Notes: generated by a model from the sequence alone, not told the origin. DNA of 58,928 nucleotides from an uncultured Helicobacteraceae bacterium (GCA_947311765.1 CAMZLS010000018.1:1-58928); one strand, 5' to 3'; positions 947 to 57,665 are shown, numbered from the stretch's first letter. Translations and numbers: made by a program.

Positions 947-1718
947 GGAAATTTCTTTAGTGACTTGGGATATTCCTGAGTTGCACAAAATGAAAAAGTA
1001 TCCAAAATCTCTCTATTTCTTAGGCAATCAAACACTTTTAAAAAAACAAAAAGTTTCCATAGTAGGAACACGCAAGCCTAATCAATATACTCGTAATATG
1101 ACAAGCAAATTAGCCCACGCCTTTAGTAAAAGAGATATATGTGTTGTGAGCGGTGCGGCTATGGGTGTGGATGCTCTTGCTCACAAGGGGGCACTTACAT
1201 GTAATACGATTGCAGTTATGGCAAATGGGCTTGATATCCGCTATCCTGCTGTCAATAAATCTCTTATAGAATCCATAGAAAATGAGGGTTTAGTCATAAG
1301 CCAATTTGAGAGAGGTGAGCGTGCGCGTCCTTGGAGTTTCGTTGTGCGTAATGAGCTTGTTGTTGCCTTAGGCGATATACTTATTGTTACACAGGCTGAT
1401 GTTGATAGTGGAACAATGCGAAGTGTAGAGTATGCACTTAGTATGGGTAAGAAAATATATGTTTTATCCCACCGTATCGGCGAGAGTGAAGCTACACAGC
1501 AACTACTAGAGGAAGGCAAGGCTGAGGCTATTTATAATATCGAAGGTTTTTGTAATCAGTTTGCTCCTTTACATGTAGGCAATGATGATATATTGCTTCA
1601 ATTTTGTAAAAGCACTCCCAGTTATGATGAGGTTTTTGCACGTTTTGGAGATAAGATCTTAGAGTATGAACTTGAAGGAAAAGTAGAAATTTTAAATGGA
1701 AAAGTGCACTGCTTATAA
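921..1718 (+). CDS. dprA: DNA-processing protein DprA
   Basis: A Rossmann-fold DprA/Smf protein that loads RecA onto incoming single-stranded DNA during natural transformation. Visible landmarks are VSIVGTRKP, VVSGAAMGVDALAH, IAVMANGLDIRYP and the VDSGTMRSVEYALS segment. The last 55 residues look like the short C-terminal winged helix. At about 265 residues it is compact, lacking the N-terminal SAM domain of longer homologues. The frame opens with a TTG at 915, but a GGAG at 911-914 is correctly spaced only for the TTG codons at 921 or 924, so I place the start at 921. The gene overlaps the upstream deacetylase and converges on queA with a 6-base overlap. Confidence 0.88.
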   Translation: MLELTTTSKEISLVTWDIPELHKMKKYPKSLYFLGNQTLLKKQKVSIVGTRKPNQYTRNMTSKLAHAFSKRDICVVSGAAMGVDALAHKGALTCNTIAVMANGLDIRYPAVNKSLIESIENEGLVISQFERGERARPWSFVVRNELVVALGDILIVTQADVDSGTMRSVEYALSMGKKIYVLSHRIGESEATQQLLEEGKAEAIYNIEGFCNQFAPLHVGNDDILLQFCKSTPSYDEVFARFGDKILEYELEGKVEILNGKVHCL

Positions 1719-2732
1719 AATAAGCATTGCATCGCCGTAGCTAAAAAATCTATACTTCTCTTTTATAGCTTCTTTGTAAATATTTTGGGCTTCTTGTAAG
1801 CCTACAAAAGAAGCTACTAGCATCAAAAGTGTGGATTTGGGAAGATGAAAGTTTGTTAAGAGATGATTGACTCTTATTGGTTGATTGTTGGGATGTAAAA
1901 AGAGATTGGCTTCGCCTGATTGCTCCTGCATTCGTGCGTAGTATTCAATAGTTCGCGTGGATGTTGTTCCAAAAGCAACGATTTTTTCAGATGAGTCCAA
2001 GAGAGTTTTAGCTTCATCTGAAACAGAAAAATACTCCGAGTGCATGGGATGATCTGTTATGGTATCACTTTGAACAGGCTTGAAGGTTCCAGCTCCTACA
2101 TGTAATGTTACAAAGGCGTGTTTGTGCTTTTGACAGATTTTATCAAAAAGAGTATCGCTAAAGTGTAAAGATGCTGTTGGAGCAGCTACTGCTCCTTCAA
2201 ATTTGGCAAAAACACTTTGATAGTTTAGTGCATCTTCGCTATTGTCATTGCGTTGTAGATATGGTGGCAAAGGGATATGACCGATCTTTTCTATGATAGG
2301 CAGCAGCTCTTCAAAGCGTAAGTCAATATCTTTTGTAAAGCGTACATCACGACTTCCGTCTTTATGGAGCTTTAAAACAGTAGCTCTCAACTCTTCATCA
2401 AAAAATATCTCAACATTCTCTTTAACGCGTCCTTTGATATAGACATTTATCGTGTAGGCATCAAGAGGGCGATTGATAAGCAACTCAAGCTTTCCACCAC
2501 TTCTCTTTTTTCCAAAAAGACGTGCCTTAATAACCTTGGTATCATTGAAAATAAGTGCGGCATCTTTAGGAAGATATCTGTTTATATTGTAAAAATAGTC
2601 ATGAGTGATGGAGCTATCGGTACGATTGTAAATTAACAGGCGTGCATTTTCACGGGGCTCTACGGGATGAGTCGCAATGAGCTCATCAGGTAGGTGATAG
2701 TCGTAACTGCTTGTTTTAAGTGGATTTAACAT
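1713..2732 (-). CDS. queA: S-adenosylmethionine:tRNA ribosyltransferase-isomerase
   Basis: QueA transfers and isomerises the ribosyl moiety of SAM onto preQ1-tRNA, giving epoxyqueuosine at the wobble position. Clear family signatures include the N-terminal YDYHLPDELIATHPVEPRE, the FNDTKVIKARLFGKK region, HVGAGTFKPV and the C-terminal FHLPKSTLLMLV. I start at ATG 2732 (339 residues), because the extra 12 residues of the longer frame are read through the acidic tail of tatC and are not family sequence. It overlaps the end of tatC. The order tatB-tatC-queA is conserved in Campylobacterota. Confidence 0.95.
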   Translation of the reverse strand: MLNPLKTSSYDYHLPDELIATHPVEPRENARLLIYNRTDSSITHDYFYNINRYLPKDAALIFNDTKVIKARLFGKKRSGGKLELLINRPLDAYTINVYIKGRVKENVEIFFDEELRATVLKLHKDGSRDVRFTKDIDLRFEELLPIIEKIGHIPLPPYLQRNDNSEDALNYQSVFAKFEGAVAAPTASLHFSDTLFDKICQKHKHAFVTLHVGAGTFKPVQSDTITDHPMHSEYFSVSDEAKTLLDSSEKIVAFGTTSTRTIEYYARMQEQSGEANLFLHPNNQPIRVNHLLTNFHLPKSTLLMLVASFVGLQEAQNIYKEAIKEKYRFFSYGDAMLIL

Positions 2733-3945: not shown

Positions 3946-5001
3946 TTATGTCGTAATAAAAAGTGCCAATTCATCGCTAAGGAGATAGTCTAAATTGTAA
4001 TATTTTCCCTCTTTACTTGTAAGTTTACTCTCTGTGGCTAATAAATCCGCTCTATTTCGTTCTTTAATGTTTAAAATACTTTTACTCACTCCAATAAAAG
4101 AGCGTAAACCCAAAAAGATTTTTTCTATCTTGATATCTTCATTTGAGAGTTTTTCTTCATCAATATCAAGAGGATTTTCAATATATTTTTCTAAAGAACT
4201 TGCTGGATAATAGCGTCTATCTTTTAAAAATCCAACCGCACCGCTTCCTAAGCCTATATACTCCTTGTGCTCCCAATAACCTATATTGTGCTTCGATTGA
4301 TAAGAGCCAAAGTTAGATATTTCGTATTGCTTAAAACCCTTACATGTAATATTGTGAAATAACTCTTGTGTCATTGCTAGTTTTTCATGTGACATCTGTG
4401 GAGTTTTTCCAAAAGGTGTTCCCTCCTCGATGGCGAGTGCATAAGCGCTGATATGATTAATAGGAAGTGAAAAAGCGATATCTAAATCATTTTCAATAAG
4501 CCCAGCAGTATCACCAGCAACACCATAGATAATATCTAAAGAGAGATTTTCAAAGCCAATCTCTTTTGCATTATTTACTGTATTGATAGCTGTTTGGCTG
4601 TTGTGGGCACGATTGAGAAGTTTTAATTTTGTATCATCAAAACTCTGCACACCAAAACTGATACGATTAACCCCAAGCGTAAACATCCCCTCTAGCCACT
4701 CTTTTGTAGCACTGTTAGGGTTTGCTTCGGAGGTGATTTCAATATCTTCTTTTAAAAAAGGTTTTAAGATTTTAAAAAGAGGCTCATAGAGTTTAGGCCC
4801 AATCGTAGAGGGTGTCCCTCCACCGATAAAAACTGTCTCGATACTCTTCCCTTCGCACTTAAAACGCCGTAACTCAAAATGTAATTGTTTAAGAAGTGCT
4901 TGCATATAAGCAGTTTGAAGGTGAAATTTGTCCACATAAGTATTAAAAGCACAGTAAGAGCACTTTGAATCACAAAACGGAATATGTATGTATAGAAGCA
5001 T
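3946..5001 (-). CDS. hemW: Radical SAM heme chaperone HemW-like protein
   Basis: A 351-residue radical-SAM protein opening with MLLYIHIPFCDSKCSYCAF, which has the CxxxCxxC cluster motif plus the extra Phe of the HemN/HemW superfamily. GGGTPS, SFGVQSFDD and the GLGSGAVGF segment follow. The short N terminus and overall length fit HemW, a heme-binding chaperone, rather than the oxygen-independent coproporphyrinogen oxidase. A bona fide HemN is encoded separately at 54211, which supports assigning this paralogue as HemW. Confidence 0.85.
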   Translation of the reverse strand: MLLYIHIPFCDSKCSYCAFNTYVDKFHLQTAYMQALLKQLHFELRRFKCEGKSIETVFIGGGTPSTIGPKLYEPLFKILKPFLKEDIEITSEANPNSATKEWLEGMFTLGVNRISFGVQSFDDTKLKLLNRAHNSQTAINTVNNAKEIGFENLSLDIIYGVAGDTAGLIENDLDIAFSLPINHISAYALAIEEGTPFGKTPQMSHEKLAMTQELFHNITCKGFKQYEISNFGSYQSKHNIGYWEHKEYIGLGSGAVGFLKDRRYYPASSLEKYIENPLDIDEEKLSNEDIKIEKIFLGLRSFIGVSKSILNIKERNRADLLATESKLTSKEGKYYNLDYLLSDELALFITT

Positions 5002-5008: not shown

Positions 5009-5806
5009 TTATTTTAAAAGAGCATTTCTCTCTTTAATAAAAGAGACTTCTTCATCCCAAAAAGTTGGTAGATGAGAAAAGTCTCTATTTGTTATGTAGA
5101 GATTTGTGATATTTTTCTGATTTGCCTCTTGTATAACTGTTCTCATGGTATCTGCATCTGGTATTGTATGGAGGATAATATGTAGTTTTTCATAATCAAG
5201 ACCAACATACTCAGTGCTATTAAATTCATCCCAATATTCGTAATAATTCTCAAATACTAAAAAGTCATCTGCTGTTGATTGTTGAATAAAATCCTTTTGT
5301 ACACCAGAAGAGTTCAGCATAACTTTTTTTACCGAATCGAAAGATTTTGCATAGTTGGTAATCTTATTATAATAATCTGTAAATTGCATATCACCATTGA
5401 CTTCGTCAAAGAAGATGCCGTCAATATCAAAATGATTAGCATAGGCAAGAACATCTGTCTTGACATCTTCTATGTCACGTGAGCCGTTTGTTGTTTCTAC
5501 ATATGCCAATATGCTTGCATTGCCTTCTCGAAGTTTTTTGAGTCCAAGAGTATAATTACTGTTTGGAGTACCAACAGGCGCACCATCTTCGCGGATTACG
5601 CCAAAGATAACAGTTAGAGGAGTCCCGCTAGAAGCCTCTGCTACTGCATCCCATATATTTCCAATAGCATTTTGTTTGTCAGTAGGCTCACTATATAAAG
5701 GAACTAAAAGTTCAGTCGGTGTTGGCTTTGGAGCACTTTTTGAGTCTGTTGAACCACATCCGAGAGAAAATAGGGTCAAAATTAGGCTAAGGTATTTTAT
5801 AATCAT
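5009..5806 (-). CDS. Spherulation-specific family 4 (GH135-like) lipoprotein A
   Basis: About 265 residues from ATG 5806, with a lipoprotein signal peptide ending FSLGC (Cys17). The longer open frame adds 33 unlikely residues. The mature part resembles the Spherulin-4 family, a TIM-barrel group that includes GH135 endo-alpha-1,4-N-acetylgalactosaminidases. Visible motifs are ELLVPLYSEP near the N terminus, ILAYVETTNGSRD and DIDGIFFDEVNGD, the last holding the expected acidic residues. The family's usual N-P-x-x-G motif is not evident here, unlike in the neighbour at 5835, so activity may differ. It is divergent from that paralogue with only 28 bases between the start codons. Inference: outer-membrane-anchored hydrolase that trims or modifies the polymer made by the adjacent Pel-like operon. 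Confidence 0.72.
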   Translation of the reverse strand: MIIKYLSLILTLFSLGCGSTDSKSAPKPTPTELLVPLYSEPTDKQNAIGNIWDAVAEASSGTPLTVIFGVIREDGAPVGTPNSNYTLGLKKLREGNASILAYVETTNGSRDIEDVKTDVLAYANHFDIDGIFFDEVNGDMQFTDYYNKITNYAKSFDSVKKVMLNSSGVQKDFIQQSTADDFLVFENYYEYWDEFNSTEYVGLDYEKLHIILHTIPDADTMRTVIQEANQKNITNLYITNRDFSHLPTFWDEEVSFIKERNALLK

Positions 5807-5834
5807 GAAATAATTATACACTAAAAGAGTAACA

Positions 5835-6647
5835 ATGTTTCGTAAAAGATATTTTTTAAGCTTTTTCTTGGTTTTTGTGATAGCTTTTTGTGCTAGTGCC
5901 TGCAAAAGTTCGTCTGAGTTTGGCAGTAAAGAGATGGTTTCGCTACTTGTCCCATTTTACATCTACCCAACAACAATAAATCCTCAAACAGGAAATCTCT
6001 ACTGGAGTGATCTTGCAAAGAGTTCCTCAAATATTACAAAAATAAGTGCTATCATCAACCCAAATAACGGTGATCATGGAAAATATTGTGATGAAAATTT
6101 TAAAAAGGGAGTGAGGCAACTCAAGGCATCTGGAATATCTGTTTTGGGTTATACATATACAAAATATGCTCATAGAGATCAGGCATTGATAGAAAAAAGT
6201 GTTGATTTTTATAAAGATAAGTATCATGTGGATGCTTTTTTTCTTGATGAGGCAAACAGCTCTCAAAGAGCAATGCTTTATTATGAAGAGTTGCGAGCGT
6301 ATATAAATAAAGATGCTTCAGATAGTGAGATAGTGCTTAATTATGGTGTAAAACCAGATGAAAAAGTTATAAAAAATGATAAGATGAAAAGTGTTGTTTT
6401 TGAAGGGGAGTATAAAACTTTCATCAGTGATAAAAATCGAATAGTATCAAAATTGTCTCAAAAAAATAGTGTATGCTTCGTTTATAATGTTGCAAGAGAA
6501 AAGATGAAAGACACCATTGATTTAGCAATTGCAAAAGGGTGCGCACAACTTTACCTTACTGATGATTCAGGAGAAAATCCTTGGGATACGCTTCCAAGTT
6601 ATTGGAATGCAATGTTGTCGTATATAAACAAGTTTAATTGGCTATAA
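5835..6647 (+). CDS. Spherulation-specific family 4 (GH135-like) lipoprotein B
   Basis: A 270-residue protein with an N-terminal hydrophobic signal and probable lipidation Cys23 (CASAC). It shows the canonical Spherulin-4 pattern: SLLVPFYIYPTTINP, IINPNNGDHG, VLGYTYTKYAHRD and DAFFLDEANSS. The family is a TIM-barrel glycoside-hydrolase clan; GH135 enzymes cut alpha-1,4-linked galactosamine-rich polymers. It reads toward, and ends 46 bases before, the Pel-like operon, which makes it a plausible substitute for the hydrolase domain of PelA. It is clearly paralogous to the divergent gene at 5009-5806, though the two are quite diverged. Confidence 0.78.
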   Translation: MFRKRYFLSFFLVFVIAFCASACKSSSEFGSKEMVSLLVPFYIYPTTINPQTGNLYWSDLAKSSSNITKISAIINPNNGDHGKYCDENFKKGVRQLKASGISVLGYTYTKYAHRDQALIEKSVDFYKDKYHVDAFFLDEANSSQRAMLYYEELRAYINKDASDSEIVLNYGVKPDEKVIKNDKMKSVVFEGEYKTFISDKNRIVSKLSQKNSVCFVYNVAREKMKDTIDLAIAKGCAQLYLTDDSGENPWDTLPSYWNAMLSYINKFNWL

Positions 6648-6693: not shown

Positions 6694-7986
6694 ATGTCTA
6701 AAATATTTTTGCTATTTTCTTTAAGTTTTTGTACCTTTCTCTTACATGCAGATGAAGCTATGAGTTATACATTGCAAACATATCTATCTGAGTTGCTAGA
6801 AGAAGATTTAGAGTATAAAAATCGAAATCTTGATGCCAAAGTGACTCTGATAAACTCTCTATTAGAGCAAAATCGTTATAATCCAAATATCTATTTAGGG
6901 GGAGAAGTTCAAGCATCGAGGGCTTTGGATTTTTCAAGAGGAATTTCTCGAGTAGAGATGAAAGCACTTGGGAGTATTCATCTTAATATGCATCTTTATG
7001 ATGCACAGCATAATACTTATATGAATACAAGAAAAGATATTTTTCAAGACTTGAGTGCTTTAAAACTTATTGATGCTAAAGAGCAGTTGCAACTTTTAGG
7101 CATTGGTATATATGTTGAACTTTTACAGATACAAAGAACAATCAAGCAATACAATATTTTATTAAAATATCAAAATATTATTACAGATATAGCACTGACT
7201 CGTGCTTCAAAAGGTTTAGGAGGTATTTATGACAAAACACAGGCGCAAAACGATCTTATTAATATTCAGTTGCGTTTAAGTGATTTGAAAGAGTTGCTTA
7301 TACAAAAAGAATACCTTTTTCGTCAGTCTATTAATTTAGAATCTGGAGCTCCTCTTGTCTTAAAAGATATTGAGTATACAAAAATTACAAGTTCTTTGGA
7401 AAACTTACAGCATGCAGCAATACATAATAATGCACGCTTACATGTAAAAGAGAAACAATATGAGTTAGCACAAAGCGATATAAAACTTGAAGTTGACAGA
7501 AGGGGACTTGGAATAGATTGGACATCTCATCTTGGATTTGGTCATGCTGAACAGTTAGATTCTCCTTATCGTTCAAGAGATGGTGAAGATTGGCAAGTGC
7601 TATTAAGTATAAACTATCCTCTTTATGAACGCGGCGATATATCAATGAAAGTACAAGAGAAAAAAATTCAAGCCTTGCAGTCAAAAAATAATCTTGCCAT
7701 TGAAAGAAGGTTGCTCAGTAGAACAATTAATCGCCTTTACAATTCTCTTCAAAAACATAAAATAAAACACCAACTCTACGCACAGCAAAAAGATGTGCTT
7801 CTTGAGAGAATTACCATTACATATAATCGTTATAAGGAAGCACTAGAAACGTATAAGCCTTATTCAGATTCTCTTCGGGATATGGCTATGAGCGATGAGG
7901 CTTATATACGAAATTCACTTTTACTTGATATGAATACTTTAGAGTTGCATATTTTAACTGGGGAGAAGTTATTTGTCTCGCATTAA
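6694..7986 (+). CDS. TolC-like outer-membrane efflux protein of the Pel-like locus
   Basis: A 430-residue protein with an N-terminal signal peptide (cleavage near LLHADEA). Long heptad-rich helices carry the TolC/OEP pattern of paired repeats: the segments around residues 40-70, 120-210 and 300-420 are coiled-coil-like and separated by short beta-rich stretches such as IYLGGEVQ and WQVLLSINYPLYERG, the latter a typical outer-membrane strand. It is the first gene of a tight operon with pelF and pelG homologues. Canonical Pel systems use PelB and PelC for outer-membrane passage and neither is visible here. I infer that this channel exports the polymer or works with a periplasmic adaptor. The stop overlaps the pelF start. 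Confidence 0.75.
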   Translation: MSKIFLLFSLSFCTFLLHADEAMSYTLQTYLSELLEEDLEYKNRNLDAKVTLINSLLEQNRYNPNIYLGGEVQASRALDFSRGISRVEMKALGSIHLNMHLYDAQHNTYMNTRKDIFQDLSALKLIDAKEQLQLLGIGIYVELLQIQRTIKQYNILLKYQNIITDIALTRASKGLGGIYDKTQAQNDLINIQLRLSDLKELLIQKEYLFRQSINLESGAPLVLKDIEYTKITSSLENLQHAAIHNNARLHVKEKQYELAQSDIKLEVDRRGLGIDWTSHLGFGHAEQLDSPYRSRDGEDWQVLLSINYPLYERGDISMKVQEKKIQALQSKNNLAIERRLLSRTINRLYNSLQKHKIKHQLYAQQKDVLLERITITYNRYKEALETYKPYSDSLRDMAMSDEAYIRNSLLLDMNTLELHILTGEKLFVSH

Positions 7987-9475: not shown

Positions 9476-11049
9476 TGCTAAAATCAAAAGAAGAGTTACT
9501 AGAACTTTATAATATTATTACAAAAGATAAAGGGAAACCATTAGATCATTGGGAAATAACAGCTTTGCTTGAGACCTATGGTTTGCGTGATGTGGATGCG
9601 TTTAATGAGTATGGTGTCGAAAATTTATTTGAGCTAGCAGATTATTTAGTACCCTTTATTAATACTAGAGATGATTATAAACTCCACTCCATACAGACTA
9701 TTCATGAGAGCAATATCTATAAGCGTGTATTCTCTAACTACATAAAAGGTCTAGCATTTTCAGTACCTATGCTTATTCAAATTATTTCTACCTTAGCTGT
9801 TGGCTATGCTCTTTGGTCTTCTATCCATGCTGGTAACGCAAGTGCTACTGCTGTGTCATTGGGCACTTTTGCCGCCTTGGTTGTTACGGGAGGCTCAGTA
9901 CAAGCTATTGGGCGTAAAGGACTTTTCTATTATAAGATGGGAGAAAATGTATTAACAAAAAATGTTACCTTACTGTTATATGGGATAGGAGTAGCTTTGA
10001 TAGTTTTTTTCTTACTATTTATGAGTGTTGTAAATTTCTTTTTCAATATATATCCATTGGATTTGTATCTTATGAGCATGGGGTATTATCTGCTTTTAGC
10101 ACTCTTTTTTCTAACACTTTCTATCTTTTATATCTTTGAAGATTATCTTTCTATTGTTCTTGTAACATCTGCTGGACTGCTTTTTGTTTATCTTTTTCGT
10201 ACTGTTTTTCATAACTCTTTGGTCTCTTCTCAGATGTACGGACTTATTATGCTAAATATTTTTGTAATGTTTGTAGCGTTTGTAAAACTACTGCGTTTGA
10301 AAGACAAAAATGGCTCTGCTGAAGGAGCAAATCTCCCTAAAGCATCTATTCTTTTTTACTCTTTGCTTCCTTATTATGGATATGGCCTCTTTTATTTTTC
10401 TTTTTTAATTGTTGATAGAATTATTGCATGGAGTGCTGATGCGGAGCACAATCCTTACATCGTTTGGTTTAATGTAAGCTACGAGCTTGGCTTGGACTGG
10501 GCATTGATATCTCTTGTTTTAATGATGGGGATAACGGAGGTAAGTATAGCTGAATTTATGTATAGACTCAACGATCGTGTTGTGAAGAGATCTTTTCTTG
10601 AAGCAGAAGCTTTTAGCAAAGAGATTTATCAATTTTTTAAAAAATTCAATATAGCTTTTATGCTTTTTTCTATACTTGTTATATTGGCAACTTTCTTTTT
10701 TATGTATTATTTACATGTAAATCTTCGCATAGAGTTTGTTGAAAATTTTATGCGCCAACCAACTATGGCAATTTTTATAATAGCTTCTATAGCCTATTTT
10801 TTGCTTGTGAATAGTTTAATGAATATCTTACTAATGTTTTCACTATCTAGGCATCATGTTCCCGTGAAAGCAGTAGGATATGGGCTTTTTGTAAATATTT
10901 TTGTTGGTATGATTCTTAGTCGTGCTTTTGGTTATGAATATGCTGTTGTTGGTCTATTGTTAGGTTCTTTGGTCTTGTGGATAGTCGTATTTCGTGAGAT
11001 TATGGCTATGTTTAAAAATTTAGATTATTATTATTATTCGGCGTATTAG
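9475..11049 (+). CDS. pelG: PelG-like polysaccharide transporter/synthase membrane subunit
   Basis: A 524-residue protein with about 12 membrane segments after an unusual soluble N-terminal region of roughly 85-100 residues rich in acidic and aromatic residues. Pattern and position immediately after PelF identify it as PelG, a Wzx/MATE-like inner-membrane partner of PelF. The membrane region opens FSNYIKGLAFSVPMLIQII and includes GTFAALVVTGGSVQAIGRKG. The N-terminal extension is longer than I expect for PelG and may replace contacts normally made by PelD or PelE. The gene shares a TAATG junction with pelF. Confidence 0.82.
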   Translation: MLKSKEELLELYNIITKDKGKPLDHWEITALLETYGLRDVDAFNEYGVENLFELADYLVPFINTRDDYKLHSIQTIHESNIYKRVFSNYIKGLAFSVPMLIQIISTLAVGYALWSSIHAGNASATAVSLGTFAALVVTGGSVQAIGRKGLFYYKMGENVLTKNVTLLLYGIGVALIVFFLLFMSVVNFFFNIYPLDLYLMSMGYYLLLALFFLTLSIFYIFEDYLSIVLVTSAGLLFVYLFRTVFHNSLVSSQMYGLIMLNIFVMFVAFVKLLRLKDKNGSAEGANLPKASILFYSLLPYYGYGLFYFSFLIVDRIIAWSADAEHNPYIVWFNVSYELGLDWALISLVLMMGITEVSIAEFMYRLNDRVVKRSFLEAEAFSKEIYQFFKKFNIAFMLFSILVILATFFFMYYLHVNLRIEFVENFMRQPTMAIFIIASIAYFLLVNSLMNILLMFSLSRHHVPVKAVGYGLFVNIFVGMILSRAFGYEYAVVGLLLGSLVLWIVVFREIMAMFKNLDYYYYSAY

Positions 11050-11059
11050 GAGTTTTGAT

Positions 11060-12241: not shown

Positions 12242-12245
12242 ATAG

Positions 12246-14438: not shown

Positions 14439-15924
14439 GAATGTCCGCTATTTTTTAGATGTTATATTTCCAAAAAGCATTTTAGATACATTATATGTCA
14501 TAGATGCTTTTATGAGTTCTACAGTAGCCTGGATACTTCTATTATTTTTAATAATTTCTCTGTATTGTCTCTATATATTTATGAAACGACTTGCAAAGGC
14601 TCATGAATTAGAACAAGGTTTAGATGAAATTTTACTTTTGAGTGCAAGAGCAAGCTCTGTAAATGAGCTCTATAATAATTTTATTAATCTAGGTTTATAT
14701 TTAGGGGGTGAATATATTGTTATGTACCAGCTTCAGGGTGAAACTTATGTTTTATTAACAGCTAATATTGATTTAAATAGCGACAACTCACCCGTAGCAG
14801 CATCCTTACATGTAAGCAAAAGAGAAGTCAAGGAGTTTCATGATTCAGGAAACTATAAAATCATCACATACAAAACAGAAAATGAAAAATACCTTCTCTC
14901 TCTTTATGCTAGAAATGAGATTGATATCAGACGCTATGAAGGAAAAATTGAGTCTCTTTTTTCACGATACGCTTCACTTAAAAATAGTGATGAAAACAGT
15001 ACAGAACTCCAGTTAGCTAAAACATCAAGACTGCTTTTTGACACTATAAACGGAACCCGTTTTGGTGATGATGGTTACATGCGCTATCTCTTATCAATGG
15101 TAAAAAAAGTCATTCATGCACAACAGGTAAAACTTTTTTCTAAAAATCAACTTAAAATTGAAATCGGAGATTGCGCTGAGTGTCTTACAAAAGTGTTTTA
15201 TATTCGTAATACAAGCTACAGAGTTGAGATTGGAACGCTAGAAGAGATTAGCATACATAATCAAAGTACAGTAGGCTCTTTTTTAGATTTAACGGGTGTT
15301 TTTATGTCCACATTAAGCCAAGAGGGTGCAATCGCTAAAAATTATATCACTTTCTTAGAAGAGGCAAATCATTTATTAGAAAGTGAAGATGAGTTTAAAA
15401 AGCTACATAGTGAAAAAGTTACTACCGTCTCTCTTGAAGTAGGCAAAGTACAATTTTTAACAACTCAAGAACTCAGTGCTCTCAAACATGCCTCAAGACT
15501 TCATGATATAGGCAGTATTACTAATTTGAATGATTTAATTGAAGAGGGGCATGATATAAATGAAAACTATAAACTACACCCATTGATAGGATCTATAATC
15601 CTAGAACCAGTTGCTAATATTTATCCTATAGCCTCTATTATAAAATACCATCATGAACGCTATGATGGAAAAGGCTATCCTTTTGGTATAAAAGGAGACG
15701 CTATTCCAAAACTTGCACAGATTTTAGCTCTTGGGGAATACTATATTGGACTCATTAGCAATCGTTCATCAAAGCAAGCTTATACTCATGATGAAGCGAT
15801 AAAGTTAGTGGCGAAAAGCTCAAACAAGATGTTTGAAAAAATTATCGTTGACTCTTTCTTGAGTGTTCATGAAAAAATCAATAAGAAAATAATACAACTA
15901 GAGCTGAAAAATTCTAAGCCTTGA
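14425..15924 (+). CDS. Membrane-anchored GAF-like/HD-GYP-type protein, HD-GYP motifs degenerate (PelD analogue?)
   Basis: 499 residues. A membrane segment lies at about 30-52, a GAF-like alpha/beta region at about 60-190, a second such region at about 205-310 and an HD-GYP domain from about 325. HD-GYP landmarks present are His328, H360-D361 (LHDIG), a later LHPLIG, and H409-H410-E411 with D414-G-x-G417-Y418-P419. Deviations are HDIGS instead of HDIGK and GEYYIG at 437-442 where active members have an Asp-containing ADxxDA segment. Active HD-GYP domains hydrolyse c-di-GMP; these changes suggest binding without efficient hydrolysis. As last gene of the operon it may act as the c-di-GMP receptor, as PelD does with a degenerate GGDEF. 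It converges on the deacetylase gene with an 11-base overlap. Confidence 0.75.
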   Translation: MQAIENVRYFLDVIFPKSILDTLYVIDAFMSSTVAWILLLFLIISLYCLYIFMKRLAKAHELEQGLDEILLLSARASSVNELYNNFINLGLYLGGEYIVMYQLQGETYVLLTANIDLNSDNSPVAASLHVSKREVKEFHDSGNYKIITYKTENEKYLLSLYARNEIDIRRYEGKIESLFSRYASLKNSDENSTELQLAKTSRLLFDTINGTRFGDDGYMRYLLSMVKKVIHAQQVKLFSKNQLKIEIGDCAECLTKVFYIRNTSYRVEIGTLEEISIHNQSTVGSFLDLTGVFMSTLSQEGAIAKNYITFLEEANHLLESEDEFKKLHSEKVTTVSLEVGKVQFLTTQELSALKHASRLHDIGSITNLNDLIEEGHDINENYKLHPLIGSIILEPVANIYPIASIIKYHHERYDGKGYPFGIKGDAIPKLAQILALGEYYIGLISNRSSKQAYTHDEAIKLVAKSSNKMFEKIIVDSFLSVHEKINKKIIQLELKNSKP

Positions 15925-23545: not shown

Positions 23546-24674
23546 GAAACTTCCAACATCCTTACATGTAAGAGAAGTATTAAAAAAACTCGGTGTTGAT
23601 GGAGGGGGCGTTAGTATCCTCTCTTCAAAGATGAAGCTACATTTTTTTTATATAAAAGCCTTACATGTAGGGGGTGCAAATATCTTAAAACAAGATGCGC
23701 TCTCTATCGGTGCTGATTTAGCAGTGCCAAAGGGAACGGTACTTGCCACAACCTCACATGTTGATGCCCTTTTAATTGCTAACACTAAACAACTCAAAGA
23801 GTTAAGTCGTAAAGAGTTGGCACAGCCTTTTGGACTCAAAGCCTTAGCCTTAGAGTTAGAGCAGTTTTTAAAATCACACACTCCAAAACTTCCAGAGGTA
23901 ATGGGCGTGATAAATGCCAATGATGATAGCTTTTACGCTTCGAGTCGTTTCAAAGACAAAGAAGCCTTGCATGTAACGATGCAGATGATAGAAGAGGGCG
24001 CTGATATTATTGATATTGGAGGTGTCTCTTCACGCCCTGGGAGTGCTTTTGTTAGCGAAAAAGAAGAGCTTGAGCGAGTAAGACCTATTATTGACTTACT
24101 CTATCAGCAAAAAGTTTATGAGAGTAAGCCATTAAGCATTGATAGCTATACTCCAAGCGTGGTTCGATACGCACTTGATAATGGTTTTTCAATTGTCAAT
24201 GATATTACAGGCTTACAAGATGATGCCATTTGTGGTTTATGCGCGCAATATCAGGCAAGAGCTATCATTATGCACATGCAAGGTACGCCACAAACGATGC
24301 AAAAAAATCCCTCTTATGAAAGCGTAATCACAGATGTGAGTAGTTTCTTTCAAGAGAGAATCCAAAAAGCAAAAAGATTTAATATCGAAAATATTATCTT
24401 AGATGTGGGAATAGGTTTTGGTAAAACGCTTGAAGATAATATCGCTCTTATCGCACAGCTAGAGCATTTTTTAAAACTTGGCTATCCTCTTTTAGTGGGA
24501 GCAAGTCGAAAATCAATGATAGATGCCATCTCTGCTTCAGCTCCCGAGGAACGCTTAGGTGGCAGCATAGCCTTACATGTAAAGGCTATTGAAAATGGTG
24601 CAGAGATTATCCGTGCACATGATGTCAAAGAGCATGTGCAAGCGATTAAAGTATGGCAGGTATTACAAGGATAA
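23535..24674 (+). CDS. folP: Dihydropteroate synthase with N-terminal extension
   Basis: 379 residues. A GTG start gives an extra N-terminal domain of about 125 residues before the DHPS barrel, as in Helicobacter-type FolP. The barrel begins VMGVINANDDSFYASSRF (standard NVTPDSF replaced by NANDDSF), then ADIIDIGGVSSRPGS, LSIDSYTPSVV, IVNDITG, IIMHMQGTPQTMQ, DVGIGFGKT and LLVGASRKS. It condenses p-aminobenzoate with the pterin pyrophosphate in folate synthesis and is the sulfonamide target. It holds two perfect copies and one near copy of the TTACATGTAA palindrome. Confidence 0.93.
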   Translation: MLLEKLPTSLHVREVLKKLGVDGGGVSILSSKMKLHFFYIKALHVGGANILKQDALSIGADLAVPKGTVLATTSHVDALLIANTKQLKELSRKELAQPFGLKALALELEQFLKSHTPKLPEVMGVINANDDSFYASSRFKDKEALHVTMQMIEEGADIIDIGGVSSRPGSAFVSEKEELERVRPIIDLLYQQKVYESKPLSIDSYTPSVVRYALDNGFSIVNDITGLQDDAICGLCAQYQARAIIMHMQGTPQTMQKNPSYESVITDVSSFFQERIQKAKRFNIENIILDVGIGFGKTLEDNIALIAQLEHFLKLGYPLLVGASRKSMIDAISASAPEERLGGSIALHVKAIENGAEIIRAHDVKEHVQAIKVWQVLQG

Positions 24675-35909: not shown

Positions 35910-35986
35910 AGTTTCTTCCCCTCTTTTTCCCCTTAACTTGGTTTATCATTAGCATGCGTTAAAAAATTTTACAAAAAGAGGATGTT

Positions 35987-36835: not shown

Positions 36836-36845
36836 GAGAGAAAAA

Positions 36846-37322: not shown

Positions 37323-37400
37323 TTAGTAAACAAGAGAGAACCTTCTTAGAGACTCTTTAAAAACCGTACCTGCCACTTTTTGTGGCACACGCAATGGGCA

Positions 37401-38240
37401 TTAAGAAAAAATATCCTGCAATTTATTCGCATCTTGCATTCGTTTGTTGAGCGCTTTGAAATCTTCGTTTTTAATCTCATTTTTCATTTTGTCTAGTTCA
37501 TTTTCAAAAAGCCCTATCGCTTCGAGAATATTTTTAGAGTTATGCTTAAAAACATCTTCCCACATCTTAGGTGAACTTTTTGCGAGACGGCTCATAGAGC
37601 GAAACCCTCCAGAAGCGAGTGTTAAGATGCTCTCTTTGTTCTCTTGATCCATAACAGTATTGGCGATGGAGTAGGAGATGGCATGAGGCATGTGTGATAT
37701 AAAAGCGGCGTGACGATCATGTTCATGAGCGCGCATATAGTGTATCTGCATGTGTAAGGCTGAAAAGAGACGCACTGCAAGCTCTTTTTGGTGCTCACCG
37801 CTCTGCTCTAAATCACATAAAACAACAACTTTATCAGTGTAGAGATTTTCAATGGCAGCGCTTGGACCAAAGTTTTCTGTTCCTGCCATAGGGTGTGCGG
37901 CTACAAGGTTATGGCGAAACTTGGGTGCTATAGCTTTGATGATACTCTCTTTTGTGCTTCCTAAGTCGATAATAGTGGCGGACTCTTTAATCTTATCAAG
38001 AGTGGATAATGTTTTAATAACACCACTCACAGGAACAGCTAAGATAATAATATCGCACTCTTTAATAGTATCAAACTCTACAAATTTTTCTACAAGATTG
38101 AGTGAAAGTGCCTCTTTTTGATGCTCTTTATTGTGATCACAGCCTAAGATAGTAGAGATAAAAGGGATTTTTTTGGCACTCAGCGCTAGAGAGCCTCCCA
38201 TAAGTCCAAGACCAACAATTCCTAATGTCATTTGATTCAT
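37401..38240 (-). CDS. tyrA: Prephenate dehydrogenase
   Basis: 279 residues from ATG 38240; ATG 38231 is an alternative and the longer open frame is not family-like. The N-terminal NAD-binding motif is LGIVGLGLMGGSLAL, with LAVPVSGV, AHPMAGTENFGPSAA and HDRHAAFISHMPHAISY. It converts prephenate to 4-hydroxyphenylpyruvate in tyrosine synthesis. Divergent from bamA, an arrangement also found in other Campylobacterota. A TTACATGTAA copy lies upstream of its start. Confidence 0.93.
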   Translation of the reverse strand: MNQMTLGIVGLGLMGGSLALSAKKIPFISTILGCDHNKEHQKEALSLNLVEKFVEFDTIKECDIIILAVPVSGVIKTLSTLDKIKESATIIDLGSTKESIIKAIAPKFRHNLVAAHPMAGTENFGPSAAIENLYTDKVVVLCDLEQSGEHQKELAVRLFSALHMQIHYMRAHEHDRHAAFISHMPHAISYSIANTVMDQENKESILTLASGGFRSMSRLAKSSPKMWEDVFKHNSKNILEAIGLFENELDKMKNEIKNEDFKALNKRMQDANKLQDIFS

Positions 38241-38354
38241 AATATCTGCCAATGTGTATAAGATGTGCAATCTTACATGTAAAATTGTTAGAAAGTCTTG
38301 ATATTTACTCAATATTAATCACTAAGGCGGTAGAATCTTTTCTATTTTTTAAAT

Positions 38355-41233: not shown

Positions 41234-41270
41234 TCTTCATATATAAACTTCTTACATGTAAGGTCTTTCA

Positions 41271-43847
41271 ATGTCTCAAGCAAGAGTAAATTATCTTAAA
41301 GATTATACCCCTAGTGCCTTCTCAATCACAAAATGTGATCTGATTTTTGATATATTTGACACACATACTTGTGTTACAAATACTATGCAGATGCAGTGTA
41401 AATCTGATAATGAAGTATTGATTTTAAATGGTGAAGGCTTGCAGTTAGAAACTCTTACATGTAATGGTGAAAATATTGACACGCATGACTTAAGTGATAC
41501 CTTTTTGTCCGTAAGAAATCTCCCTAAAGTGTTCACCTTAGAGATAGTCACTATAATCTATCCTCATAAAAATACAGAGCTTGAAGGTCTGTATCGTTCA
41601 TCAGATATATACTGCACGCAAAATGAGCCAGAGGGTTTTCGTCGAATAACATACTTCTTAGATCGCCCTGATGTAATGAGTGTCTTTACAACAAAAATTA
41701 TTGCGGATAAGAAAACAGCGCCAATTTTACTGAGTAATGGAAATTTTCTTGAGAGTGGTGATATGGAAAATGGGCGTCATTTTGTAAAATGGCATGACCC
41801 CTTTATGAAGCCTACCTATCTTTTTGCCTTGGTTGCAGGAGATTTAGGTTTTATAAATGATAGTTTTATAACTATGAGCGGTCGAGAGATAGAGCTCAAT
41901 ATTTACTGCGACCATGGCAATGAAAACCGTTGCTATCATGCAATGAATTCACTGAAAAAGTCCATGAAGTGGGATGAAGAGATGTACGGGCGTGAATATG
42001 ATTTAGATATTTATAATATTGTCGCAGTAGATAGCTTCAATATGGGAGCTATGGAAAATAAAGGACTCAATATCTTTAACTCTGCCTATGTTTTAGCAGA
42101 TGAAGACCGCGCAACTGATCAAAATTTTTTAGGAATAGAGAGTGTTATCGCTCATGAGTATTTTCATAACTGGACAGGAAATCGCATTACATGTAGGGAT
42201 TGGTTTCAACTTACTCTCAAAGAGGGTTTAACTGTTTTTCGTGATCAGTGCTTTAGTGCAGATATGAATTCGGCAGTGACACAGCGAATTTCTGATGTAA
42301 AATCTCTGCGTGAGCGTCAGTTCGTAGAGGACGCTTCTGCAACGTCACACCCGATAAAGCCTGAAAAATATATGGAGATAAATAACTTCTATACGGCAAC
42401 TATTTATGAAAAAGGTGCGGAGGTCATTCGCATGATTTATACCATGCTAGGCGAAGAACGGTTTCGTGATGCAATGGATCTGTATTTCAAAACCTTTGAT
42501 GCGCAGGCGGTGCGGACTGAAGATTTTCTTTGGGCGATGCAAGAGGGTGGTAAGATTGATTTAACACAGTTTGAGAGATGGTATCATCAAGAGAGAACTC
42601 CACTCTTACATGTAAAAGAGTTTTATGATGCAAGCGAGCAGACTTATAGACTTGAATTAACTCAAGAAATTCCTAACAGTCTTGCTAGCACACCACAATT
42701 TCCTTACTATTATCCTCTAGCGATTGCTCTTTTTGATGAAAAGGGTAAAGAGTTTGATCTCAAACTTGAACGATCACTCTTACATGTAAGCAAAGAGAGA
42801 GAGACTTTTGTATTTGAAGATATCACTACAAAACCTATTCTTTCAATCAATAGAAATTTTACAGCACCAATCAAAGTAAATTTTCAAGACAATAATCATG
42901 CATTTTTAATGCGTTATGATAGTGATGGTTTTAATCGCTATGAGGCTTCTATGAGTTTTGCTTTGGAGGTGCTTTTTAAGCTTATGGAGTCCAAAGAGAA
43001 TGTTGATGAAGCCTATTTAGATGCTTTTGGAACAGTTTTAGCAGACAAAAACCTAGATTTAATGTTAAAATCACAGATTTTAGAACTACCTTCTACAACT
43101 CTTATTATGCAAGCACAAGAGATTGTTGATGTTGATGCTATTTGTAGAGCTAAAAAAGTTTTAAAAAAAGCTCTATTTGAGCGCTTTAATGAAGAGATGA
43201 CAAGGCAGTATTTAGAGCTTCACAGTCCTAAAAATAGTGATATCAATAGTCTCAATATTGGCAAAAGAGCCTTAAAAAATCTTCTATTGCAATATCTTGT
43301 ATCATCAAAAAGAAGTGATAAAATATCACTTGCTCTCTCACAGTTTGAAAAAAGTGTGACTATGACAGATAGAATTATTGCCTTAGATTTATTGGAAAAT
43401 TATGCTCCGCTAAAAGCAGAAAAATATCTTAACAAATTTTATAAGATGTATAAAAATGATACCTTGGTAATGAATAAATATTTCTCTATCTTAGCTGCAG
43501 CAGATAGGGATGATGTCTTAGAGCGTGTTCAAGCACTTCAAGATGATCCTGTGTATGATATGAAGGTTCCTAATCTTGTGCGTTCGCTTATAGGTACTTT
43601 TGCGCGGAATATGCTCCATTTTCATTCTCAAACAGGGTGTGGATACAGTTTTATTGCTGATAAAATCATACAATTAGATGAAATAAATCCTATGATTGCT
43701 GCAAGCTTATCAGGAGCATTTAAGAGTTATAGTCGCTTAGATAAGTTGCATAAAAATTTAATGCGTCATGAATTAGAACGAATTTTGGCAGTGAAATCTA
43801 TTTCAAAAAATGTATTTGAAATTGTGCAAAAGATATTAAGGAATTGA
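41271..43847 (+). CDS. pepN: Aminopeptidase N (M1 metallopeptidase)
   Basis: 858 residues. The M1 exopeptidase motif is NMGAMENKGLNIFN; the zinc site is HEYFHNWTGNR (His295, Glu296, His299) with the downstream LKEGLTVFRDQ Glu. The C-terminal half matches bacterial PepN (DUF3458 regions). It removes N-terminal residues from peptides in the cytoplasm or periplasm. Three perfect copies of the TTACATGTAA palindrome lie inside the gene and a fourth just before its start codon, supplying part of the AAGG ribosome-binding sequence. Confidence 0.95.
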   Translation: MSQARVNYLKDYTPSAFSITKCDLIFDIFDTHTCVTNTMQMQCKSDNEVLILNGEGLQLETLTCNGENIDTHDLSDTFLSVRNLPKVFTLEIVTIIYPHKNTELEGLYRSSDIYCTQNEPEGFRRITYFLDRPDVMSVFTTKIIADKKTAPILLSNGNFLESGDMENGRHFVKWHDPFMKPTYLFALVAGDLGFINDSFITMSGREIELNIYCDHGNENRCYHAMNSLKKSMKWDEEMYGREYDLDIYNIVAVDSFNMGAMENKGLNIFNSAYVLADEDRATDQNFLGIESVIAHEYFHNWTGNRITCRDWFQLTLKEGLTVFRDQCFSADMNSAVTQRISDVKSLRERQFVEDASATSHPIKPEKYMEINNFYTATIYEKGAEVIRMIYTMLGEERFRDAMDLYFKTFDAQAVRTEDFLWAMQEGGKIDLTQFERWYHQERTPLLHVKEFYDASEQTYRLELTQEIPNSLASTPQFPYYYPLAIALFDEKGKEFDLKLERSLLHVSKERETFVFEDITTKPILSINRNFTAPIKVNFQDNNHAFLMRYDSDGFNRYEASMSFALEVLFKLMESKENVDEAYLDAFGTVLADKNLDLMLKSQILELPSTTLIMQAQEIVDVDAICRAKKVLKKALFERFNEEMTRQYLELHSPKNSDINSLNIGKRALKNLLLQYLVSSKRSDKISLALSQFEKSVTMTDRIIALDLLENYAPLKAEKYLNKFYKMYKNDTLVMNKYFSILAAADRDDVLERVQALQDDPVYDMKVPNLVRSLIGTFARNMLHFHSQTGCGYSFIADKIIQLDEINPMIAASLSGAFKSYSRLDKLHKNLMRHELERILAVKSISKNVFEIVQKILRN

Positions 43848-46171: not shown

Positions 46172-46213
46172 AAAGGTTTACATGCAAGCTAGGCTTACAT
46201 GTAAAGGCATACT

Positions 46214-54023: not shown

Positions 54024-54210
54024 TATAATTCTCCATATAAAACTATTATAACAAATTTTTGATAAAATATTTTTAAGCTAATCAAGAAAAGTTATAAAAA
54101 ACTTCAATTTTTAAAGACTCAATTATCTTTTAACCCCATCTTTAATTCTAAAAGGTATAATCACGATTAAATAGACTTAAAGTCTTATACCTTACATGTA
54201 ATGGAATAAT

Positions 54211-55581
54211 ATGCTTGATTTTGCTAAATTCACAACCTATTCAAAACCTGGACCACGCTATACGAGTTACCCTACAGCCTTAGAGTTCAGTGATGCTTTT
54301 GCCTATGATACTTATATTCAAAAATTAGAAAACAGAGATAAGAAGCGTCCGCTTTCTCTCTATTTCCACCTTCCTTTTTGTCGTAATGCCTGTTATTTTT
54401 GTGGATGTAATGTTGTTTTTACCTCTAAAGAAGAGAAACTACTGCGCTATATAGATTATCTTAAGCGTGAGATGGAAATTTTAGTGAAACATGTTGATAC
54501 CTCTCGTGAGGTGATTCAGATGCATTTTGGTGGAGGAACTCCGACATTTTTTACAGCAGAGCAGCTAGAGAATATTATTAAGATGATTAAAGGACATTTT
54601 AAAAATTTTGCCAAAAATGCTGAGATTAGTTGCGAGATTGATCCGCGTCATATTAATGAAGAGCAGATGAAAGTAATGAGTGAGGCTGGATTTAATCGTG
54701 TGAGTTTTGGTATCCAAGATTTTAATGAAAAAGTACAAATCGCAGTACACCGTGTCCAACCTTATGATATTACACAAAAAGCGATGGATCTAGCACGAAA
54801 ATATAATATGCTTAGTGTTAATGTGGACTTAATTTACGGACTGCCTTATCAGACCTTGGAGACTTTTAAAGAGACATTAGATAAGGTTATTACGCTTAAT
54901 CCTAACCGTTTTGCAGTCTTTAACTATGCCCATGTACCTTGGCTTAAAAAGACAATGCGAAAAATTGATGAAACAACACTTCCTCGTCCTGATGTAAAAC
55001 TCCAAATCATGCAATATACTATAGAATTTATGGAGTCGCATGGTTACAAGATGATAGGAATGGATCACTTTGCTAAACCTGATGATGAGCTTTTTATGGC
55101 TATCGAAAAAGGGGAGCTTCATCGTAATTTCCAAGGCTATACCACCAAAGGTGGCGCTGATTTAATTGGTATTGGCTTGACATCTATTGGCGAAGGTGCA
55201 GCGGACTATTATGCGCAAAACTTTAAGGATATGTATGCTTATGAAGCAGCTATTGATGCAGGTAGGCTTCCGTTTGAGCGTGGCGCAACCCTCAATGAAG
55301 ATGATAAAATCCGTCAATTCGTGATTATGGAATTAATGAGTAATTTTAAACTTGATATCAAGCGTTTTGAAAAGACTTTTAATCTTGTTTTTAGTGAATA
55401 TTTTGCAGATGCCTTAATAGAACTTCAACCACTTGCCGAGGATGGTATCATTAAAATCACTGATGAATATATTACATGTAATCAGACAGGAACGCTACTG
55501 ATTCGTAATATTTCCATGCCTTTTGATGCTTATATGGGTAAACATGCGCAGAGCAAGAAAACCTTTTCTAAGACGGTCTAG
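54211..55581 (+). CDS. hemN: Oxygen-independent coproporphyrinogen III oxidase
   Basis: 456 residues. Family hallmarks are the N-terminal YSKPGPRYTSYPTALEF, the radical-SAM motif FCRNACYFCGCN (CxxxCxxCxC), HFGGGTPTF, NRVSFGIQDFNEKVQ and DLIYGLPYQT. It decarboxylates coproporphyrinogen III under anoxic conditions. A TTACATGTAA copy lies 10 bases upstream of its ATG and another is inside the gene. The glcF-like gene follows after 3 bases; the same neighbour order exists in H. pylori as I recall it. Confidence 0.95.
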   Translation: MLDFAKFTTYSKPGPRYTSYPTALEFSDAFAYDTYIQKLENRDKKRPLSLYFHLPFCRNACYFCGCNVVFTSKEEKLLRYIDYLKREMEILVKHVDTSREVIQMHFGGGTPTFFTAEQLENIIKMIKGHFKNFAKNAEISCEIDPRHINEEQMKVMSEAGFNRVSFGIQDFNEKVQIAVHRVQPYDITQKAMDLARKYNMLSVNVDLIYGLPYQTLETFKETLDKVITLNPNRFAVFNYAHVPWLKKTMRKIDETTLPRPDVKLQIMQYTIEFMESHGYKMIGMDHFAKPDDELFMAIEKGELHRNFQGYTTKGGADLIGIGLTSIGEGAADYYAQNFKDMYAYEAAIDAGRLPFERGATLNEDDKIRQFVIMELMSNFKLDIKRFEKTFNLVFSEYFADALIELQPLAEDGIIKITDEYITCNQTGTLLIRNISMPFDAYMGKHAQSKKTFSKTV

Positions 55582-55584: not shown

Positions 55585-56871
55585 ATGAATAAAAAGCTTG
55601 AAGATATTTTCAATTTTTCTGAAATTTCAGATGAGTGCGTAAAGTGCGGAAAGTGTATTCCTGTCTGTACTATCTATAATGTCAATGCAGATGAGGTAAC
55701 GACACCACGAGGATTTATCGACCTTTTAGGGGCGTACCAGCGTGGGGATTTGGAGCTTGATAAAACGCTAAAAGATATCTTTGAGAGCTGTTTCTTGTGT
55801 ACGGCTTGTGTAGAAGTTTGTCCTAATAGTTTGCCAACAGATATGGTGATAGAACAAGTTCGCTCTGATATTGCAGATAAATTTGGCCTTGCCTTTTTTA
55901 AAAAAGCATTCTTTTATCTGCTTCGTCATCGTTTTGCTATGGATGTTTTATTTAAGATGGGCTATGTTTTTCAGACTTGCGGTTTTAAGATTAAAGAGGC
56001 GCAAAACTCTATGCAGCCGCGTTTTAATCTTCCTCTTATCAAAAAAGAGCGACTACTTCCAAGTATGGGAAAAACCTCATTTTTAAACTCTTATCCTGAA
56101 GAGACAAGCAATGGTGGGCGAAGAAAAGTCGCTATCTTTATCGGCTGTTTGTCAAACTACAACTACACTGAGACGGGTAAAGCTTTGATGGATGTTTTAG
56201 AAAAACTAGAGATTGATGTGCTTATTCCTAAAAAACAGCTCTGTTGCGGTGCGCCTGCTTATTTTACAGGTGATAGTGCTACCGTAGAGCATAATGCCAA
56301 GAAAAACATCCGTTATTTTGAAACCTTTATAGATGAGGTTGAGGCGATTATTATCCCTGAAGCGACTTGCAGTGCAATGATAAAGATTGATTATGAACAC
56401 TTTTTCCATGATGATGTGGAGTGGCGAACAAGAGCAAAATTGCTCAAAGATAAGATATTTATGGCAACAGAATGGCTAGAGCAGAAAACAGAGCTTCATG
56501 ATCTTCTTTCACAGAAAAAAGCACAAGATTTTAGTATCACTTATCATGATGCCTGTCATGCTAAAAAGATGCAAGGCATTTATCAAGAACCGCGTAAACT
56601 GCTCAAGCAAAACTATGCCATTACAGAGATGAGTGACTCTAACGCTTGTTGTGGTTTTGGTGGTGTAACGATGCAGACAGAAAAATTTCATTTCGCAGAG
56701 GCAGTAGGGCGACCAAAAGCAGCTATGATACGAAATACAGGTGCAAAAGTTGTTTCATCAGAGTGTTCGGCATGCCGCATGCAGATAACAAACTCTCTGC
56801 ATGAAGCCGATGTGGATGTACTTTTTAAAAACCCAATAGAGCTAATTGCTGATGCTTTGAAGGAGAGATAA
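55585..56871 (+). CDS. glcF: GlcF/GlpC-like (Fe-S)-binding oxidoreductase subunit, copy 2
   Basis: 428 residues, closely similar throughout to the gene at 34475. Two 4Fe-4S motifs (CVKCGKCIPVC and CFLCTACVEVCPN), then CCG domains (IGCLSNYNY ... KQLCCGAP; YHDACHAKKM ... NACCGFGG) and CSACRMQ. In H. pylori the gene next to hemN is annotated glpC, and this copy is probably its orthologue and the ancestral one. It shares one base with the next gene's start. No flavoprotein partner lies nearby, so it may share the GlcD-like protein at 29206 or use another. Confidence 0.87.
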   Translation: MNKKLEDIFNFSEISDECVKCGKCIPVCTIYNVNADEVTTPRGFIDLLGAYQRGDLELDKTLKDIFESCFLCTACVEVCPNSLPTDMVIEQVRSDIADKFGLAFFKKAFFYLLRHRFAMDVLFKMGYVFQTCGFKIKEAQNSMQPRFNLPLIKKERLLPSMGKTSFLNSYPEETSNGGRRKVAIFIGCLSNYNYTETGKALMDVLEKLEIDVLIPKKQLCCGAPAYFTGDSATVEHNAKKNIRYFETFIDEVEAIIIPEATCSAMIKIDYEHFFHDDVEWRTRAKLLKDKIFMATEWLEQKTELHDLLSQKKAQDFSITYHDACHAKKMQGIYQEPRKLLKQNYAITEMSDSNACCGFGGVTMQTEKFHFAEAVGRPKAAMIRNTGAKVVSSECSACRMQITNSLHEADVDVLFKNPIELIADALKER

Positions 56872-57665
56872 TGCGTTTTATAGGATTGTTCTTTATGACA
56901 ATCTCTTTTCTGTACGGACAGATAGAGATAAGAGATATTGAAGTAGAAAAGCTTGATGAAGCTTCAGGCTTGTTAGTAAGTCAAAAATATCCAAATATTT
57001 TTTGGAGTCATAATGATTCAGGTGACAAGGCAAGACTCTATGCTTTTGATAAAAATACTCTCAAAAAAGTCAAGAAGATTAAGATAAAAAAAGCTGACAA
57101 TATTGACTGGGAAGATATCACTTATCATAAGGGAAATATCGTTATAGGCGATTTTGGAAATAATAAAAACAAACGCAAGGATTTAACTCTCTATACAATT
57201 AAAGAGCCAAATCCTTATAAAGATAAAAAAGTCAAAATTATTTCCAAGCAGAGGTTTGTTTTTTCAGATCAAAAATCCTTACCGCCCAAACGAAAAAATT
57301 TCGACTGCGAGGCGATATTTTCCTTTGATAATGAACTCTATCTTTTCACAAAACATAGAGCAGACAATAATACGACTCTCTATCATTTACAGGGAGATAA
57401 GGCAGTAAAACTTGCTAGTTTTGAGATGGATAGGCGTGTTACAGGAGCCGATAGTGATGGAGAGAGAGTTGTTATCCTAACTTACGGTTCGCTCTATCTC
57501 TTTAGGCCAAAAAAGATAGATAAAAACTTTTTTAAGGAGACATTTAGTCGTGTAAAGCTTAGGGATGTTGGGCAAGTTGAAGGTGTTGCTTTGGATGGAA
57601 AATATCTACATGTAATTAGTGAAGAGGGTAGGTTATACACTTTACATGTAAGTGATTTGAAATAA
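56871..57665 (+). CDS. Secreted beta-propeller-like protein of unknown function
   Basis: 264 residues with a signal peptide (cleavage near FLYGQ). Recurring motifs such as SGLLVSQKYPNIFWSHNDSGD, DWEDITYHKGNIVIGDFGNN, NFDCEAIFSFDNELYLFTKH and VEGVALDGKYLHVISEEG suggest several blades of a beta-propeller of the SdiA-regulated/esterase-like type. I see no catalytic residues. It overlaps the GlcF gene and is followed by lgt 8 bases later, so it probably sits in the same transcript. It carries a perfect TTACATGTAA near its 3' end. Confidence 0.6.
   Translation: MRFIGLFFMTISFLYGQIEIRDIEVEKLDEASGLLVSQKYPNIFWSHNDSGDKARLYAFDKNTLKKVKKIKIKKADNIDWEDITYHKGNIVIGDFGNNKNKRKDLTLYTIKEPNPYKDKKVKIISKQRFVFSDQKSLPPKRKNFDCEAIFSFDNELYLFTKHRADNNTTLYHLQGDKAVKLASFEMDRRVTGADSDGERVVILTYGSLYLFRPKKIDKNFFKETFSRVKLRDVGQVEGVALDGKYLHVISEEGRLYTLHVSDLK

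Follow-up and report, generated by a model that had tools for sequence, protein, structure and literature searches.

Genomic uptake sequences have been described in only two families, the Neisseriaceae and the Pasteurellaceae (PMC5031613). The DNA uptake sequences (DUS) of the former and the uptake signal sequences (USS) of the latter generally number at least 1,000 per genome (PMC1852404, PMC3630211). The neisserial DUS dialects are variants of one core, and their receptor is ComP (PMC3630211); for the pasteurellacean USS, ComN/PpdA is the predicted receptor (PMC12616744). A dispersed word of another kind is the cyanobacterial highly iterated palindrome HIP1, GCGATCGC, for which alternates with a matching methyltransferase occur in other species (PMC4390886). 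Here we describe a 10-base palindrome, TTACATGTAA, that is scattered through a 58,928-nucleotide stretch of DNA from an uncultured Helicobacteraceae bacterium (GCA_947311765.1 CAMZLS010000018.1:1-58928; hereafter, the window) and through the rest of its genome. Comparison with the systems above suggests that the word probably serves self-recognition in a DNA-uptake system, as a palindromic equivalent of the DUS and USS.

The host is a sulfur-cycling environmental bacterium, and its draft metagenome-assembled genome (MAG; 1,980,870 bases, or 1.98 Mb, in 148 contigs, 94% complete) is that of a Sulfurimonadaceae-like member of the Campylobacterota. The genomes closest by LysC comparison are Sulfurimonadaceae-type MAGs, the nearest named one being Helicobacteraceae bacterium S010_53 (86%), with Sulfuricurvum next. 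Nearly all genomes used for comparison are drafts or MAGs.

Sixteen perfect copies of TTACATGTAA lie between positions 1195 and 57651 of the window, whereas 100 dinucleotide-preserving shuffles gave a mean of 0.15 and a maximum of 1. The host genome as a whole carries 866 copies, or about one per 2.3 kb, where about 5 are expected, and a congener, G001, carries 896. Thus, the original prediction, which claimed at least 16 perfect copies in strong excess, holds far beyond the window, and the genome-wide count is far above a Markov expectation. The reversed control word has 0 copies in the whole host genome (1,980,870 bases). There are 25 copies of the 8-mer core, TACATGTA, in the window, compared with about 1.3 expected from trinucleotides.

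The anatomy of the word (variants, flanks, and reading frames) was derived from 302 kb of the host genome, in which the 10-mer occurs 114 times and the core 141 times. Perfect copies are far commoner than single-mismatch forms, of which there are 0-14 per substitution; the most frequent have C at position 1 (14 copies) or G at position 3 (13), and several variants do not occur. In 68% of half-sites, C or G stands directly beside the word; one position beyond this base A is avoided, whereas 4-7 bases out it is mildly favored. No conserved context was found past the 12-14 bp word. The extended form noted earlier, CTTACATGTAAG, is therefore a preference and not a requirement, because both C/G flanks are found in just 4 of the 16 window copies. 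In G055, a genome of another family that is likely Sulfurospirillum-like, T/A adjoins the word in 81% of cases and C stands next in 54%, giving CTTTACATGTAAAG. This flank differs from that of the host; therefore, even the flank is dialectal.

The word resides both in genes and between them, as originally stated. With simple open-reading-frame calls, 90 of the 114 copies (79%) are inside genes, where 55 are read in frame 0 as L-H-V, 34 in frame 1 as x-T-C-[KN], and 1 in the third frame. The reported preference for LHV or TCN is real yet nearly forced, because the third frame holds an in-frame TAA stop. The other 24 copies are intergenic, a 2.7-fold excess over the 9 expected; the excess in G055 is about 4-fold (71 of 205 copies, compared with 8.6%). 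Spacing is near random, with slight clustering (coefficient of variation of the gaps, 1.17).

TTACATGTAA is maintained as a DNA word and not as a protein motif. The host (G000) and G001 share 75% DNA identity, and every one of the 13 copies that could be aligned is unchanged (13 of 13), compared with 7.7% of random 10-mers. The original claim that the DNA itself is kept is upheld by coding alignments of the same pair, in which 11 of 11 copies are identical, compared with 18.2% of codon triplets whose residues are the same in both genomes. Against the more distant G005 (genus g5), four of five copies are identical in DNA alignment (70% identity) and three of five in coding alignment. Similarly, two Sulfurospirillum loci with 75% identity have kept 10 of 15 copies, against a background of ~14%.

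A very different outcome is seen in two sister genomes of genus g16. G016 carries 367 copies of TTACATGTAA and G029 only 48; over 52.7 kb of alignment at 81% identity, none of 11 copies is kept, although 16% of random 10-mers are identical. Relative to the G000/G001 pair (13/13), this difference is significant (Fisher, 4 × 10^-7). The force that keeps the word can therefore be lost. Other sampled g16 genomes have 262-1151 copies of the core, compared with 99 in G029, and for this reason the simplest reading of these sequences is that the word was lost in G029, where no obvious replacement word was found in 60 kb. Alternatively, the word may have been gained in G016, as would fit the observation that the G016/G029 sites have diverged more than background.

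Other relatives carry different words at a density similar to that of TTACATGTAA. Among 80 named loci surveyed, TACATGTA ranks first among the words of Sulfurospirillum and of several Sulfurimonas-like genomes, and CCACATGCC, AAACGCAG, GATGCTAAG, or TAGTACTA is found in others at ~0.4-1.5 per kb; the word of G002 is CTCACGCA. TAGTACTA is palindromic, whereas CCACATGCC, AAACGCAG, CTCACGCA, and GATGCTAAG are not. Most de novo searches covered ~20 kb per genome, at which sparse words escape. Three words were counted genome-wide in 58 genomes of a single genus (g2): nine genomes have 440-848 copies of TACATGTA; four have 1344-2331 copies of AAACGCAG and one has 361; and six have 924-1668 copies of CACATGCC, with two weaker (410 and 337). 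Among the 58, no two of the three words are strongly enriched in the same genome. G147, with moderate numbers of both TACATGTA (271) and CACATGCC (109), may be intermediate. At these counts, exclusivity on its own is modestly significant; the stronger point is that distinct words fill the same niche within one genus. On a LysC tree, the dialect labels need 17 changes, compared with 25.2 when shuffled (0 of 200 shuffles as low), and dialects are therefore inherited yet switch repeatedly. De novo searches of single 8-20 kb pieces from 20 further g2 genomes gave mostly nothing strong; thus, many relatives either have no detectable dialect or have one too sparse for pieces of this size. Between loci L041 and L044 (89% identical), six of six aligned AAACGCAG sites differ, and five have T for C, compared with a 10% CG-to-TG background (P = 5 × 10^-5). 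These small numbers hint at a concerted shift from AAACGCAG to AAATGCAG.

Several further over-represented words were seen in the survey. Another Campylobacterales MAG (L055) has a different palindrome, TTAGTACTAA, with 12 core copies in 21 kb where <1 is expected; this word appears to play the same part there as TTACATGTAA in the host. The dense words CGTCATTGCGAG and CGCGGGAATGACG of L056 and L081 resemble repetitive extragenic palindromes and, unlike the uptake-like words, have extended shared context. The long words CCGATACACG, AGGCAGCTTA, and CTGTTGATTC (L134-L137 of G051 and G039; L115-L117 of G021) resemble repeat arrays; they are probably clustered regularly interspaced short palindromic repeats (CRISPR), set apart from the dispersed words.

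In the uptake reading, a DNA-binding part of the competence pseudopilus or of the outer-membrane step would prefer fragments that bear the word. Such fragments would be taken up more often and then recombined into the chromosome, and the word would thereby accumulate and persist, mostly at permissive positions in and between genes. Drift of the receptor's preference would lead to genome-wide replacement by another dialect, and loss of the preference or of competence would let the word decay. We infer the uptake bias itself, its receptor, and maintenance through recombination. The chances seem to us about even that this is a third, independently evolved DNA-uptake-sequence system, located in the Campylobacterota and having an unusual palindromic word and rapid turnover between palindromic and non-palindromic dialects within one genus.

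The likeness to the DUS lies in hundreds to thousands of exact 10-12-mers in coding and intergenic DNA, in family-wide dialects with normally one per genome, and possibly in depletion from foreign DNA. The two differ in that the word here is a perfect palindrome, its dialects include unrelated, non-palindromic words, and pairing in terminators is rare; moreover, the host belongs to another phylum, where the uptake system is putative. Inverted pairs in terminators are common in genomes with DUS or USS, but are not strictly defining. The USS is similar in density (~1 per 1-2 kb), in a strong peak of perfect copies, and in a flanking AT preference; however, it is asymmetric (AAGTGCGGT), and the orthology of the Campylobacterota machinery is putative. 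Most of the genomically testable features of an uptake-sequence system are present, so the word appears to work like one, as a candidate rather than a proven member.

DprA is used in transformation, and its gene is present in the window, as the original prediction noted (Table 1). ComEC is found in the host and in 56 of 60 relatives. Because it occurs in nearly all relatives with or without the word, ComEC was set aside as a discriminator; dprA itself is weak evidence for an uptake role. A pilin cluster adjoins flagellar basal-body genes and what we take, from their sequences, to be priA-ispG-dnaB-comEC (the flagellar names are likewise our assignment). The first pilin before priA is wholly different in G016 (word present) and G029 (word lost), whereas the flanking genes are alike; from this pair alone, it seemed a candidate receptor. 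A pilin with a GTLNR motif is common to G004, G074, G085, G086, G117, and G173 and to G055 of the other family. A profile search detected pilin 1 in 33 of 151 genomes; many of these lack the word, and G000, G001, G005, and G016 are not among them. Furthermore, genomes that differ in their word can have similar pilins (a word is shared by 43 of 126 similar pairs, compared with 138 of 435 of all pairs).

As a separate observation, the pseudopilins before priA (L123, 2535-4000; L124, 1854-3377; also L195-L220) have a C-terminal domain that is hypervariable between sisters, in contrast to the conserved last pilin. Variants that resemble one another turn up again in distant genomes, which suggests exchange or diversifying selection.

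Foreign DNA was represented by one element. The plasmid piece from G055 has 1 copy of the word, compared with 9.4 expected (P = 0.0009; one half plasmid, the sole element tested), much as Neisseria has DUS-poor islands (PMC7371117). The piece (L265) is half of a plasmid-like 39.9 kb contig (C2), and its genes encode an McrBC component, a D12 methyltransferase, AbiEii, SIR2, an ADP-ribosylglycohydrolase, and transposases.

A number of these results count against an uptake role. The word is a perfect palindrome, HIP1-like in form and unlike the DUS and USS. Close pairs, whose use in terminators is typical of the DUS and USS, number just 5 among the 114 host copies; Sulfurospirillum has 8 among 84, and terminator stems were rejected as the role of the word on account of these low numbers. 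ComEC fails to discriminate, the distribution of the variable pilin before priA does not follow that of the word, for which reason this pilin was rejected as the receptor, and the plasmid depletion comes from a single half plasmid. In the open-licence literature (subscription papers and preprints lie outside this scope), no uptake or transformation data were found for the host or its relatives, and neither these words nor uptake sequences in Sulfurimonas, Sulfurospirillum, or Campylobacterota are named.

The alternative that survives best, although we consider it unlikely, is that TTACATGTAA is a HIP1-like palindrome, modified by an orphan methyltransferase and created and kept by methylation-dependent repair or signaling. 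Like HIP1, the word is a perfect palindrome, is dispersed in and between genes at very high density, and is patchy, with replacements in some species; HIP1 likewise has alternates with a matching methyltransferase (PMC4390886). However, HIP1 and its described alternates are tied to methyltransferases for palindromic sites, whereas sister lineages here use non-palindromic words at similar density. This replacement favors uptake over methylation, and the sequences thus support the original choice of uptake sequences as the lead, with methylation and nucleoid-protein sites as alternatives. In addition, no common methyltransferase was found in the two families searched, the adenine methyltransferases PF01555 and PF02384. 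PF01555 is lacking in five essentially complete genomes that are rich in the word (G016, G055, G075, G139, and G160), and PF02384 has no match in G001, a weak one in G016, and a similarly weak one in G029, where the word is lost. Both were rejected as cognates because they do not track the word; D12, C5, and Eco57I enzymes were not searched genome-wide. A D12 enzyme is carried on the G055 plasmid.

We rate somewhat lower, as distinctly unlikely, a binding site for a nucleoid or chromosome-organizing protein with a need for sites at intervals of 2-3 kb. The genome-wide spread, conservation of position in close relatives, and the intergenic excess in the host and G055 are all compatible with such a protein, and palindromy suggests a dimer. 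On the other hand, the word is swapped quickly for unrelated, non-palindromic words within one genus, and G029 has lost it almost completely, with 60 kb of sequence giving no obvious substitute. This loss counts against the proposal because an important organizer would not be expected to disappear so readily.

A transcription-factor operator or a promoter or terminator element is highly improbable. Some intergenic copies sit 8-12 bp ahead of called start codons, where the TAAGG end of the word could act as a ribosome-binding sequence, but the intragenic location of 79% of copies largely refutes this role, and close pairs able to form a terminator stem are rare. Scarcely credible is an artefact of mutation or of mobile elements (copies of a transposon end, a CRISPR, or a codon or peptide motif), which the array-like words of other genomes (CCGATACACG in G051, CTGTTGATTC in G021) might bring to mind, and which is refuted by the lack of extended homology past the 12-14 bp word and by the wide dispersal of the word, which lies in unrelated genes and is read in two frames.

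Table 1. Copies of the palindrome and the dprA gene in the window
Feature	Coordinates	Strand	Context
Word copy 1	1195..1204		inside dprA
Word copy 2	4340..4349		in radical SAM gene (gene on - strand)
Word copy 3	7438..7447		in TolC-like gene
Word copy 4	10711..10720		flanked by T and A; open reading frame 9475-11049, no Pfam match
Word copy 5	14806..14815		full CTTACATGTAAG form; HD-domain gene
Word copy 6	23562..23571		full CTTACATGTAAG form; folP-like gene
Word copy 7	24573..24582		folP-like gene
Word copy 8	38273..38282		prephenate dehydrogenase gene
Word copy 9	41252..41261		intergenic, 9 bp ahead of called pepN start; full CTTACATGTAAG form
Word copy 10	41455..41464		pepN
Word copy 11	42606..42615		pepN
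Word copy 12	42780..42789		pepN; full CTTACATGTAAG form
Word copy 13	46195..46204		intergenic
Word copy 14	54192..54201		intergenic, 9 bp ahead of called hemN-like start
Word copy 15	55472..55481		hemN-like gene
Word copy 16	57642..57651		end of open reading frame 56871-57665
dprA (DNA recombination-mediator protein A)	915..1718	+	PF02481, E 8e-55; contains word copy 1

Positions 24583-38272 of the window form a 13.7 kb block free of TTACATGTAA; no longer gap was seen in the part of the genome that was sampled. Its genes include a two-component pair and dihydroorotate-dehydrogenase-like, glcD-like, ABC-transporter, and ferredoxin genes, and it is possibly a more recently acquired block. Elsewhere in the window, two adjacent and divergent Spherulin4-family genes (5009-5905, - strand; 5835-6647, + strand) adjoin a glycosyltransferase/TolC-like cluster, in which three proteins (9475-14438) have no Pfam match.

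Uptake tags have so far been found in two families. If the uptake reading is true, this would be a third case, one from a different phylum and with many dialects among close relatives; it would reveal how uptake tags arise, change, and disappear, and dialect switching would be observable between sister genomes. The 81% identical genomes G016, which has the word, and G029, which has nearly none, would provide a natural contrast for finding the receptor. A fragment carrying TTACATGTAA would be expected to be preferred over one carrying AATGTACATT or no word, and adding the word should make the Sulfurospirillum and Sulfurimonas strains used in biogeochemistry easier to transform.

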